In this document: positions 29,271 to 33,310 of the stretch, in pieces
Numbering within the stretch: position 1 is the stretch's first letter
Layout of the letters: each line of letters starts with the position of its first letter
From: Phaeospirillum sp.
GTDB lineage: Bacteria; Pseudomonadota; Alphaproteobacteria; Rhodospirillales; Magnetospirillaceae
NCBI GenBank assembly: GCA_030651575.1
Contig: JAUSFB010000029.1
Location: 62,001-126,000, forward strand
DNA: 64,000 nt
Direction: 5' to 3'
Position numbers and translations under genes: made by a program
The notes under the pieces: model-generated
Database searches by the model: none
What the model saw: the letters and a program-made list of their open reading frames with translations, nothing else
What the model was told of the DNA's origin: nothing

Positions 29271-29487
29271 CGTCCTCGCGAAGCAAAATGTCGGGCGGAC
29301 TATAGGCAAAAGCCCCCCTCCCCGTCCAGAGGGGTTCACACCCCTTCGTCATCATACTGCATTTTGTATTTTTCATTAAATTTCAACACAATATCCACAG
29401 AACCCACTGCATCTCGTGGTTAACCTTTGTAAATGGGCCATATCTTGTATTGTAAACGAGTTATGTCTTGACGGCCTCCGACTGGCT
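29271..29487. other. AT-rich promoter region between NDUFA12 and nrdJ
   Basis: No gene is seen. The stretch 29341-29470 is far richer in A and T than the surrounding DNA and holds the divergent promoters. TTGACG at 29468-29473 with ATAGGC 17 bases later is one possible nrdJ promoter; TTAACC at 29420 with ATATCT is another. Neither is certain. Confidence 0.5.
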
Positions 29488-29589
29488 GGCATAGGCTGCG
29501 TCCTCGTCGAGGGAGAGCCACTAGATGTAGTGGATCAGTGCGGGAGAGGGAACGCGCCATCAAGGCGCCGACCGCTCTAACCGCATGCC
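29488..29589 (+). promoter_or_regulatory. Candidate structured RNA leader of nrdJ
   Basis: About 100 bases just upstream of nrdJ can fold into nested helices. The ends pair (GGCAT 29488-29492 with ATGCC 29585-29589, then GCG with CGC). Inside are CCTC-gtc-GAGG (29502-29512), a perfect CCACTA-gatg-TAGTGG (29518-29533), and AGtGCGG with CCGCtCT (29537-29543 with 29572-29578) enclosing GCGCC-atcaa-GGCGC (29554-29568). It has no recognisable B12 box in the expected 3' position, so it is not an ordinary cobalamin riboswitch. A regulatory leader is inferred. Confidence 0.5.
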
Positions 29590-29635
29590 TTCGGCCCAGA
29601 GTCGAGCAAGACTAGTCGAGCCATGAGGGGGAACC

Positions 29636-32600
29636 ATGCGGGTCCAGCGTCACTACACCAAGGCCGGTGAATCAGCCTATACCGGAATCGAATTCCGCAA
29701 GGCCGTCAGCGAAATCCGCAATCCCGATGGATCGGTGGTGTTCTCCGCCAACGACCTCGAAGTCCCGGCGGAGTGGTCCCAGGTGGCGTGCGACGTGCTC
29801 GCCCAGAAGTATTTCCGCAAGGCCGGCGTGCCGGCCAAGCTGAAGCGCGCCTCTGAAAAAGGCATCCCCGAATGGCTGGCCCGTCACGAGCCCGATTCGG
29901 AGGCCCTGGCCAAGCTGCCGGAAAAGGCCCGGATTATCGGCGAAAAGAGCGCCAAGCAGGTCTTCGACCGCCTGGCCGGCACCTGGACCTATTGGGGCTG
30001 GAAAGGCGGCTATTTCGACGGCGAGACCGACGCCTTGGCCTTCCGCGACGAGATGGCCCATATGCTGGCCCGCCAGATGGGCGCCCCCAATTCGCCGCAA
30101 TGGTTCAACACCGGCCTGCACTGGGCCTATGGCATCGACGGCCCCGGCCAGGGCCACTCCTATGTGGATCATAAGACCGGCAAGCTGGTGCGTTCGAAGT
30201 CCGCTTACGAGCACCCGCAGCCCCATGCCTGCTTCATCCAGTCCATCGAGGATGATCTGGTGAACGAGGGCGGCATCATGGACCTGTGGGTCCGCGAGGC
30301 CCGCCTGTTCAAGTACGGCTCGGGCACCGGCACCAATTTCTCCAAGCTGCGCGGCGAGGGTGAGAAGCTGTCCGGCGGCGGACGCTCCTCCGGCCTGATG
30401 AGCTTCCTCAAGATCGGCGACCGCGCCGCCGGCGCCATCAAGTCGGGCGGCACCACGCGGCGCGCCGCCAAGATGGTGGTGGTCGACGTCGATCACCCCG
30501 ACGTGGAAAAGTTCATCTCGTGGAAGGTCCGCGAGGAACAGAAGGTCGCCGCCCTGGTGGCCGGCTCGCGCCTCGCCGCCCGCACCCTGACCGAGGTCAT
30601 GGCCGCCTGCCGCGAATGGGACGGCGCCGACGGCGAGGCCCGCTTCGACCCCAAGCTCAACGCCCGCCTGAAAAAAGCCATCATCGACGGCCGCAAGTGC
30701 GAGATTCCCGAGAACTACATCCAGCGGGTGATCCAGTTCGCGCGTCAGGGCTACACCCAGATCGATTTCCCGGTGTTGGACACCGACTGGGACTCCGAGG
30801 CGTATCTGACCGTGTCCGGCCAGAACTCCAACAACTCGGTGCGCGTCGACAACGCCTTCCTCAACGCCGTGATCCATGACGGCGACTGGAACCTGACCCA
30901 TCGCAAGAACGGCAAGGTCGCCAAGACCTTGAAGGCCCGCGAGCTGTGGGAACAGATCGGCGACGCCGCCTGGGCCTGCGCCGATCCGGGAATCCAGTTC
31001 GACAGCACCATCAACGAGTGGCACACCTGCCCCGAATCCGGCCGCATCAATGCGTCCAATCCGTGCTCGGAATACATGTTCCTGGACGACACCGCCTGCA
31101 ATCTGGCGTCCTTGAACCTGTTGTGCTTCCGCAAGGCCGATAACAGCTTCGACGTCGAGGGCTATCGCCACGCCGTCCGGCTGTGGACCATGGTTCTCGA
31201 AATCTCGGTGCTGATGGCCCAGTTCCCCTCGCCCCGCATCGCCGAACTGTCCTACGAGTTCCGCACCCTGGGCCTGGGCTACGCCAATGTGGGCGGTCTG
31301 CTGATGGCATCGGGCATCCCCTATGACAGCGAGACCGGCCGCGCCATGATCGCCGCCATCACCGCGCTGACCACCGGTGAATCCTACGCCACCTCCGCCG
31401 ACATGGCCGAGGAGCTGGGCGCGTTCGAGGGCTTTGAGAAGAACCGCGCCGCCATGCTGCGCGTCATCCGCAACCACCGCCGCGCCGCCCATGGCATGGG
31501 CACCGGCTATGAGGGGCTGTCCATCACCCCCGTGCCGCTGGACGCCGCCAACTGCCCCGACGCCCCCCTGCTGGCCGCCTCGCGCCAAGCCTGGGACGAG
31601 GCGCTGGCCAAGGGCGAGAAGCACGGCTTCCGCAACGCGCAGGTCTCCGTGGTCGCCCCCACCGGCACCATCGGCCTGGTGATGGATTGCGACACCACCG
31701 GCATCGAGCCCGACTTCGCCCTGGTGAAGTTCAAGAAGCTGGCCGGCGGCGGCTATTTCAAGATCATCAACCGCATGGTGCCCGAGGCGCTGCGCACCCT
31801 CGGCTATACCGAGAACAACATCTCGGAAACCATCCGCTACGCGGTCGGCCATGGCTCGCTGCGGGGCGCGCCGCACGTCAACCACGACTCGCTGCGCGCC
31901 AAGGGCTTCGACGACGAGACCATCGACAAGATCGAGGCGCAGCTTGAAGCCGCCTTCGACATCAAATTCGTCTTCAACAAATACGCCCTGGGCGAGCAGT
32001 TCTGCACCGACGTCCTGGGCATCCCGGCGGCCCGCCTGAACGACTACACCTTCGACATGCTGGCCTTCCTGGGCTTCACGCGGGAACAGATCGACGCCGC
32101 CAACACCCACTGCACCGGCGCCATGACCCTGGAGGGAGCCCCCCACCTCAAGGCCGAGCACCTGCCGGTGTTCGATTGCGCCAGCCCCTGCGGCCGCATC
32201 GGCAAGCGCTCGCTCTCGGTCGAAGGCCATATCCGCATGATGGCCGCCGCCCAATCCTTCATCTCCGGCGCCATTTCCAAGACCATCAATATGTCCAACT
32301 CGGCCACCGTCGAGGACTGCAAGCAGGCCTACATGCTGTCCTGGCGCCTGGGGGTCAAGGCCAATGCCCTGTACCGCGACGGCTCCAAGCTCAGTCAGCC
32401 GCTTCAGGCCTCCCTGCTCGACGACGTGGGCGAGTTGGCCGACCAGCTGGCCGACGCCACCGCGTCGTCGCGGACCGAAATCGTCGCCGAGCGCATGGTC
32501 GAGCGGATCGTTCAGCAGGCGCAACGCCGCGCCAAGCTGCCCGACCGCCGCAAGGGCTATACCCAAAAGGCCATCGTCGGCGGCCACAAGGTCTACCTGC

Positions 32601-33310
32601 GCACCGGCGAGTACGAGGACGGTAAGCTGGGCGAGATTTTCATCGACATGCACAAGGAAGGCGCCGCCTTCCGCGCCATGATGAACAACTTCGCCATCGC
32701 CATCTCGGTGGGCCTGCAATACGGCGTGCCGCTGGAGGAATTCGTCGAAGCCTTCACCTTCACCCGGTTCGAGCCCTCAGGGATGGTCGAAGGCAATGAG
32801 ACCATCAAGATGTCCAGCTCGATCATCGACTACATCTTCCGCGAGCTGGCGATCTCGTATCTCGGCCGCAACGATCTGGCCCATGTGGAACCGGCCGACC
32901 TGACCCCCGACGCCATGGGTCGTGGCGCCGCCGAAAGCCAATTGGAGCCCCAGTCCATCGCCGCCCAGAATCTGGCGGCCCAGCATATGGCGGTGGTGGA
33001 ACGGGTCGCCTCGAAGGGCTATGTCCGCTCCAACCTGATGTTCCACACCCGCGGCGCCGGCCCGACCTCCATGTCGACCGACATCTCCGGCGGCATGCAG
33101 ATGACGGCGGTGGCCCAGACGGTGGTCAGCGTCGGCGGCGACACCGAGGCCCTGATCCAGGAGTTCGACGCCCGCGCCGACCAGATCCGCAACGCCCGCA
33201 TGAAGGGCTATGAGGGCGACGCCTGCCCCGAATGCGGCAACTTCACCCTGGTCCGCAACGGCACCTGCCTGAAATGCGACACCTGCGGCGGCACCACCGG
33301 TTGCAGCTGA
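29636..33310 (+). CDS. nrdJ: Vitamin B12-dependent (class II) ribonucleotide reductase
   Basis: A 1224-residue enzyme reducing ribonucleotides to deoxyribonucleotides with adenosylcobalamin as radical source, so it works with or without oxygen. Visible parts are the N-terminal FRKAVSEI region, the substrate/active-site stretch [28 protein letters not shown] (Cys residues near 460-490), [25 protein letters not shown] in the barrel, a TSCPD domain (about residues 985-1060) and a C-terminal cysteine-rich tail [23 protein letters not shown] that probably binds zinc or shuttles reducing equivalents. GAGGGGG precedes the ATG. It is followed by a strong terminator and stands alone. Confidence 0.97.

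Follow-up and report, generated by a model that had tools for sequence, protein, structure and literature searches.

A probably conserved three-armed RNA and an array of NrdR-like sites upstream of nrdJ in Magnetospirillum-like bacteria

We have found that in Magnetospirillum-like bacteria the nrdJ mRNA probably begins with a conserved RNA fold of three arms, and that the DNA upstream of the gene carries sites resembling the operator of NrdR, which by their sequence form an array at intervals of about three helical turns. As a consensus over leaders of two genera the fold has good support; its closing stem, P1, is less certain in the genome that supplied the window, by which we mean the whole 64-kb stretch of DNA analysed. 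The explanation that we tentatively prefer, at a little under an even chance, is that nrdJ has an NrdR-repressed promoter and, after it, a conserved leader that folds so as to pair its own 5' end and would in this way protect the mRNA, with no ligand involved. Coordinates of all features are collected in the table.

The product of nrdJ scored 2191.7 bits against NF005736 (cut-off 1737), which bears out its first identification as a B12-dependent ribonucleotide reductase (RNR). The RNR large-chain domain occurs at three loci in the window's genome, and neither the class I small subunit nor NrdD gave a match there. In such a genome a structured leader that belongs to no Rfam family, on the gene of the B12-dependent enzyme, is of interest as a possible further level of dNTP control in addition to NrdR, and one that can be tested. 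Among the matches listed, the nearest named relatives by NrdJ were a Rhodospirillales MAG (89%), M. fulvum (84%) and a Magnetospirillum MAG (84%). The nrdJ loci collected were the best 80 of 591 candidates. The family set comprised 53 genomes with nrdJ, from which 50 upstream regions were used (G039, G040 and G046 were left out).

Table. Predicted and annotated features around the start of nrdJ; positions are those of the window
Feature	Position	Strand	Sequence or pairing	Remark
NrdR-like box	29404..29419	.	CCACTGCATCTCGTGG	12/16; offset -114 from box C, against -94 in the family
Weak NrdR-like box	29435..29450	.	GGGCCATATCTTGTAT	11/16; offset -83 from box C
Predicted -35	29468..29473	+	TTGACG	overlaps degenerate NrdR-like site at offsets -62/-60 (29456-29473)
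Predicted -10 region	29490..29497	+	CATAGGCT; hexamer TAGGCT 29492-29497	overlaps degenerate NrdR-like site at offset -32
Expected transcription start	29504 +/- about 2 nt	+		predicted; 6-nt spacer after -10
P1, closing stem	29506..29595	+	29506-29513 GTCGAGGG / 29588-29595 CCTTCGGC	8 pairs
Box C	29518..29533	.	CCACTAGATGTAGTGG	NrdR-type operator in DNA, hairpin P2 in RNA; 14/16
P3	29538..29586	+	29538-29543/29581-29586, 29545-29550/29572-29578, 29554-29558/29564-29568	from folding and paired changes
Alternative helix	29590..29620	+	29590-29595/29615-29620	excludes P1; only part of genus
Ribosome-binding site	29625..29630	+	GAGGGG	
nrdJ	29636..33310	+		adenosylcobalamin-dependent (class II) RNR, 1224 aa; NF005736 match

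The predicted -35 and -10 elements, whose hexamers lie 18 nt apart, are argued from conservation among relatives; a stringent promoter scan gave no match for them upstream of nrdJ. The start was placed with a spacer like the 6 bp reported for one promoter of M. gryphiswaldense (PMC9549626), a relative for which mapped transcription starts exist (PMC9549626); nrdJ does not occur in the main text of that 2022 transcriptome report, which suggests that the regulators of that species' long leaders are mostly unidentified. In 41 of the 50 family upstream regions a -10-like motif of the CATAnnnT type stands 27-30 nt before a box C scoring at least 10/16 (27-31 allowed), the spacing being 28 nt in 32 of the 41, and box C lies 75 to 127 nt from the ATG. 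The nine regions in which the box-motif pair is missing are G004, G006, G015, L144, L145, L148, L149 and the contig-end-cut L146 and L152. The predicted start lies upstream of 29540, the position that the original prediction had named as the limit for a start compatible with its folded leader.

Box C was recognised by its agreement with acaCwAtATaTwGtgt, the NrdR box consensus, a 16-bp palindrome with central AT. It has both properties and is the sole site of its score in the 64-kb window, where the next best are seven sites at 12. An internal check on this consensus is offered by another class II-type RNR gene of the assembly, at which boxes of 13/16 and 16/16 lie 32 bp apart. That gene (G000:C42:4044-5933, L241) is of the long form, and the contig that carries the 16/16 box is possibly a contaminant (contamination 3.3%). 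Among 24 family representatives the mean NrdR-box score was 13.5 at offset 0, 8.3 at -62, 8.1 at -94 and 7.6 at -32, against a background of 5.3, shadow peaks up to 3 bases from 0 being disregarded. The -32 peak (z 2.7) corresponds to a spacer of 16, as does the -94/-62 pair; the -32 site coincides with the -10 and the -62 site with the -35, and both are degenerate in the window, whose better upstream pair (29404 and 29435) is 31 bp apart with a spacer of 15. The criterion applied for a second box, a spacer of 14-17 or 24-27 bp, is a rule from PMC12051234, and spacers of 14-17 bp agree with the NrdR binding measured there. NrdR is encoded in the window's genome (PF22811 at G000:C71:53082-53207, above cut-off) and in all 20 genomes searched. 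Its zinc ribbon was seen at two to five places in G003, G007, G009, G010 and G011, all of the window's genus.

Within the window, the RNA is likely to extend from about 29504 to 29595, with P1 beginning 2 nt after the predicted transcription start and its 3' arm ending 40 nt before the ATG. P1 is present in the minimum-energy fold of the predicted leader, and a structured model (R1) aligns positions 29503-29595 at 21.5 bits. The 102 nt of the original prediction gave a more stable fold than 196 of 200 dinucleotide shuffles did (z -2.45); for a 201-nt stretch around them z was -1.14, and 26 of 200 shuffles were as good. The five helices first proposed can all be drawn in the sequence (the small hairpin, CCTC/GAGG, by eye). 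Two of these elements, the hairpin at 29518-29533 and the two-part stem at 29538-29586, are supported by our comparisons, and what had been missed at the former is the operator. The end-to-end closing stem GGCAT/ATGCC (29488-29492/29585-29589) is unsupported: its 5' arm uses bases of the predicted -10 and would be untranscribed, since the start is expected near 29504, and swapping its arms gave p 0.05 when 16 representatives were used and 0.28 when 25 were. The small hairpin (29502-29512) would have half its 5' side before the expected start; the 5' arm of the leader folds in this way in one of two alignments of the window's genus, and the two-genus consensus has P1.

The conserved fold was examined by consensus folding of structure-blind alignments, each compared with 200 column shuffles, for 13 leaders of the window's genus, 13 of a second genus, and 13 of these 26 drawn from both. 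P1, P2 and P3 all emerged for the second genus and for the two-genus set. Over the whole leader z was -6.6 in the window's genus, -4.8 in the second genus and -6.9 for both (0 of 200 shuffles as good). Masking box C gave -4.9, -2.9 and -5.3 (0, 2 and 0 shuffles as good), and all eight masked runs went beyond their shuffles, with z between -2.7 and -5.4 and no more than 2 of 200 shuffles reaching the same level. The control, the stretch upstream of the -10, gave z -0.7, -0.5 and 0.2. An operator palindrome in a transcribed leader can look like a hairpin of the RNA, and it is wise to mask such sites before proposing a riboswitch.

Paired changes were counted among relatives as well. A model of the second genus was used to align 26 matches; 83.6% of cells were then paired, as against 38-57% when the partners were slid, and two-sided changes were found in 14 of 24 pairs. 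This alignment leans towards structure, includes one match from outside the family (L046), and misses L116 and L119 of the window's genus, which fell short of its E 0.1 cut. In the second genus alone, whose alignment was trimmed at its 3' ends at the presumed P1 arm, 85.9% of cells were paired (40-52% slid), and 13 two-sided cells in 6 pairs compare with 4.2 in shuffles. Partners slid by -1 or -2 gave 14 and 21 two-sided cells, in 8 pairs each, with far fewer cells pairing. In the window's genus the 5' arm of P1 hardly varies, and the changes in its 3' arm mostly keep the pairs (by eye, except G002 and G010). The nrdJ leader is the top-scoring place for R1 in all but one of the 13 leader-bearing genomes of the window's genus (12 genomes) and comes second in G008, with weak E-values (0.003-5.5). 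Against a sequence-only model R1 gave more bits for 8 of 13 leaders and fewer for 5, and the E-values of the sequence-only model were smaller. A 29-bp second match in the window's own genome (L002), inside long open frames of which one is lysozyme-like by eye, was taken as chance.

Arm swaps among family representatives gave a clear signal for P1 under the tighter geometry (p 0.0007 with 14 representatives; 0.0002-0.003 with 16 or 25) and a near-neutral result under the loose one (mean fraction 0.44 and 0.41). The lower part of P3 also gave a signal (p 0.006 and 0.0006); its upper part gave none (p 0.39, 0.58). The two upstream control stretches had p 0.30 and 0.46 with 16 representatives but 0.03 and 0.04 with 25, so that part of the family signal for P1 may reflect relatedness or composition; a promoter-spacer arm, also a control, had p 0.08 and 0.06. 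Within subgroups the P1 swap was marginal (p 0.05-0.13) and inside single genera not significant (p 0.12-0.68). Outside the family, where 21 and 37 of 60 upstream regions were usable, it was null (p 0.33-0.81), with one control deviating the opposite way (z 2.9). Taken with the consensus folds and paired changes, the swaps support the folded nrdJ leader of the original prediction, and as a conserved one.

It could be argued that the constraint acts on DNA only, the palindromes and a G+C-rich leader being kept for the promoter and NrdR while the RNA fold is functionless. A palindromic operator such as box C is necessarily able to form a hairpin as RNA, the sequence-only model does nearly as well as R1, swaps within genera are not significant, and three genomes of the window's genus lack the leader. 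These three (G004, G006 and G015, with loci L140, L141 and L142, of the M. fulvum group) retain 44-47 nt and keep NrdR-like boxes further upstream. The upstream sequence of L004 is the same as that of G015. We consider a DNA-only constraint rather doubtful, as the fold with box C masked exceeds its shuffles in every one of the eight runs while the upstream controls are null, and P1 and P3 join segments that lie far apart and show two-sided changes.

The position of P1 in the window's own genus is the weaker part of the model. The whole-leader consensus of that genus contains P2 and P3 and lacks P1: the 3' arm of P1 is taken up by a GTCGA segment further downstream, and the 5' arm folds on itself into a small hairpin similar to the one first proposed. 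With the start assumed 4 nt earlier, one of two alignments has the 5' arm paired to the ribosome-site region instead. P1 reappears when the alignment ends at box C plus 85. The missing P1 counts somewhat against a protective leader and in favour of both the DNA-only explanation and a riboswitch. When predicted leaders were folded singly (z -3.5 to 1.4), the start of the RNA closed the junction in many relatives and not in all; those not favouring P1 include G003, G052 and G014 (mean pairing 0.02, 0.11 and 0.19). The downstream arm of the helix competing with P1, GTCGAG, repeats the start of the 5' arm of P1.

The original prediction had read the fold as a riboswitch aptamer, of which the conserved fold stands, together with a competing helix in part of the genus, and for which there is little positive evidence of switching. 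Such a riboswitch, a new class or variant binding adenosylcobalamin, dATP or another nucleotide, would set P1 against the alternative helix beside the ribosome site. The gene context suits it, as does a three-way junction closed by P1, and the helix exclusive with P1 is found both in the window and in the whole-leader consensus of its genus. When the 5' arm of P1 was blocked in the window, predicted accessibility of the ribosome site fell from 0.35 to 0.12; this modelled drop and the competing helix together are the best remaining argument for a switch. Over 27 leaders, however, no consistent effect was seen (0.43 with P1 against 0.38 with its 5' arm blocked), and 6 of the 13 leaders of the genus, as judged by eye, lack the competing arm GTCGA. 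Furthermore, no terminator-like site was found at the leader, the invariant columns fall almost solely in the NrdR box and P1 (two lie elsewhere in one genus and three in the other), and the leader is absent from the three genomes mentioned above. Our sequence and fold comparisons gave no sign of small-molecule sensing by the leader RNA, of B12 or otherwise, and we regard a new riboswitch as unlikely.

Known RNA families were searched for at the leader. The leader had been suggested as a member of the nrdJ-upstream RNA motif; no Rfam model matched in the window at gathering score, nor at E up to 10 within 29430-29650, and neither the cobalamin nor the nrdJ motif model matches at the leader. 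A scan of 20 genomes for the nrdJ motif (RF03034) was negative, the controls of that scan being silent as well. A cobalamin riboswitch of the known class (RF00174) was considered and rejected, since its model has no match at nrdJ and matches two places elsewhere in the genome. At gathering scores, the 40 nrdJ loci searched, out of the 80 kept from 591 candidates, yielded one tRNA and nothing else. No alphaproteobacterial nrdJ leader RNA is described in the titles or abstract openings that our searches of open-licence papers listed.

Two further explanations were weighed. A protein or a small RNA may bind the leader and control translation or decay of nrdJ from there, and a varying sequence on a kept architecture would suit a partner that recognises structure. 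No loop sequence besides the NrdR box is common to the leaders and the partner is hypothetical; we hold this to be quite unlikely. Least probable, and very unlikely in our estimation, is a dual code in which one palindrome is an NrdR operator in DNA and, in RNA, the P2 arm of a regulated three-way junction. If that were true, NrdR would sense nucleotides at transcription, and afterwards the RNA would use P1 and the helix that competes with it to sense adenosylcobalamin or a nucleotide, as a riboswitch class not in Rfam 15.

Under the preferred explanation, an NrdR-repressed promoter followed by a ligand-free protective leader, control would begin in the DNA, where NrdR-like sites about three helical turns apart begin upstream of the -35, cover the -35 and the -10, and end with box C inside the predicted transcript. 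With ATP and dATP bound, NrdR would, by analogy with its family, close the nrdJ promoter when dATP is plentiful. Once transcribed, the leader would form a three-way junction of P1 as closing stem, P2 as the box C palindrome and P3 as a long hairpin, with the 5' side of P1 comprising about the first ten nucleotides of the mRNA and thereby hiding its 5' end. The leader may thus serve to protect the message from 5'-end-dependent decay (RppH/RNase E) and to insulate the ribosome site. In vitro, RNase E is slower by a factor of more than ten on RNA whose 5' end is base-paired than on RNA that exposes a 5' monophosphate (PMC3997798), and this preference makes protection the most economical role for P1.

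Other nrdJ leaders deserve mention in their own right. Those of the Rhizobiaceae and relatives (L011, L029, L030, L038, L040, L045, L050, L051, L062, L063, L065, L066 and L081) may share a different fold: directly after an NrdR-type box, TTGCAGCC can pair by eye with GGCTGC further on, GCAGCAA with TTGCTGC in L051 being a paired change, and the alignment fold pairs GGCTGC otherwise. In another family of the order (L193, L206, L214, L225, L233, L235 and L237), several members keep CCGnCCTGGGA and later GTCGGT within the 120 nt that precede nrdJ, and these blocks may belong to a separate leader RNA.

The nrdJ region can be set beside several known systems. The 5' stem-loops of ompA and papA stabilise mRNA. 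In these, to go by the titles of the works referenced in PMC3997798, the mRNA 5' end is base-paired, as is predicted for nrdJ; unlike them, the nrdJ 5' end would close a three-way junction, and its stabilising effect is putative. The nrdJ motif RF03034, reported in Streptomyces, is likewise an RNA upstream of a class II RNR gene, but unlike members of that motif the window's leader is not matched by its covariance model. RF00174 would suit the cofactor of nrdJ, but its matches in this genome lie elsewhere than at the gene. NrdR box pairs in Streptomyces, E. coli and Listeria are likewise 16-bp palindromes with AT at the centre; they lie about 31-32 bp apart and overlap the RNA polymerase site (PMC12176259, PMC12051234), and a multi-site promoter such as the one proposed for nrdJ has parallels in nrdAB of E. 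coli, with three boxes, and of Listeria, with four (PMC12176259, PMC12051234). In contrast to those pairs, the last box at nrdJ falls within the predicted transcript, where it also serves as one hairpin of the conserved fold, and the site that would pair with it at the canonical distance, over the -10, is degenerate. We would class the nrdJ region as an NrdR promoter with a structured leader, a variant on the NrdR promoters already known.
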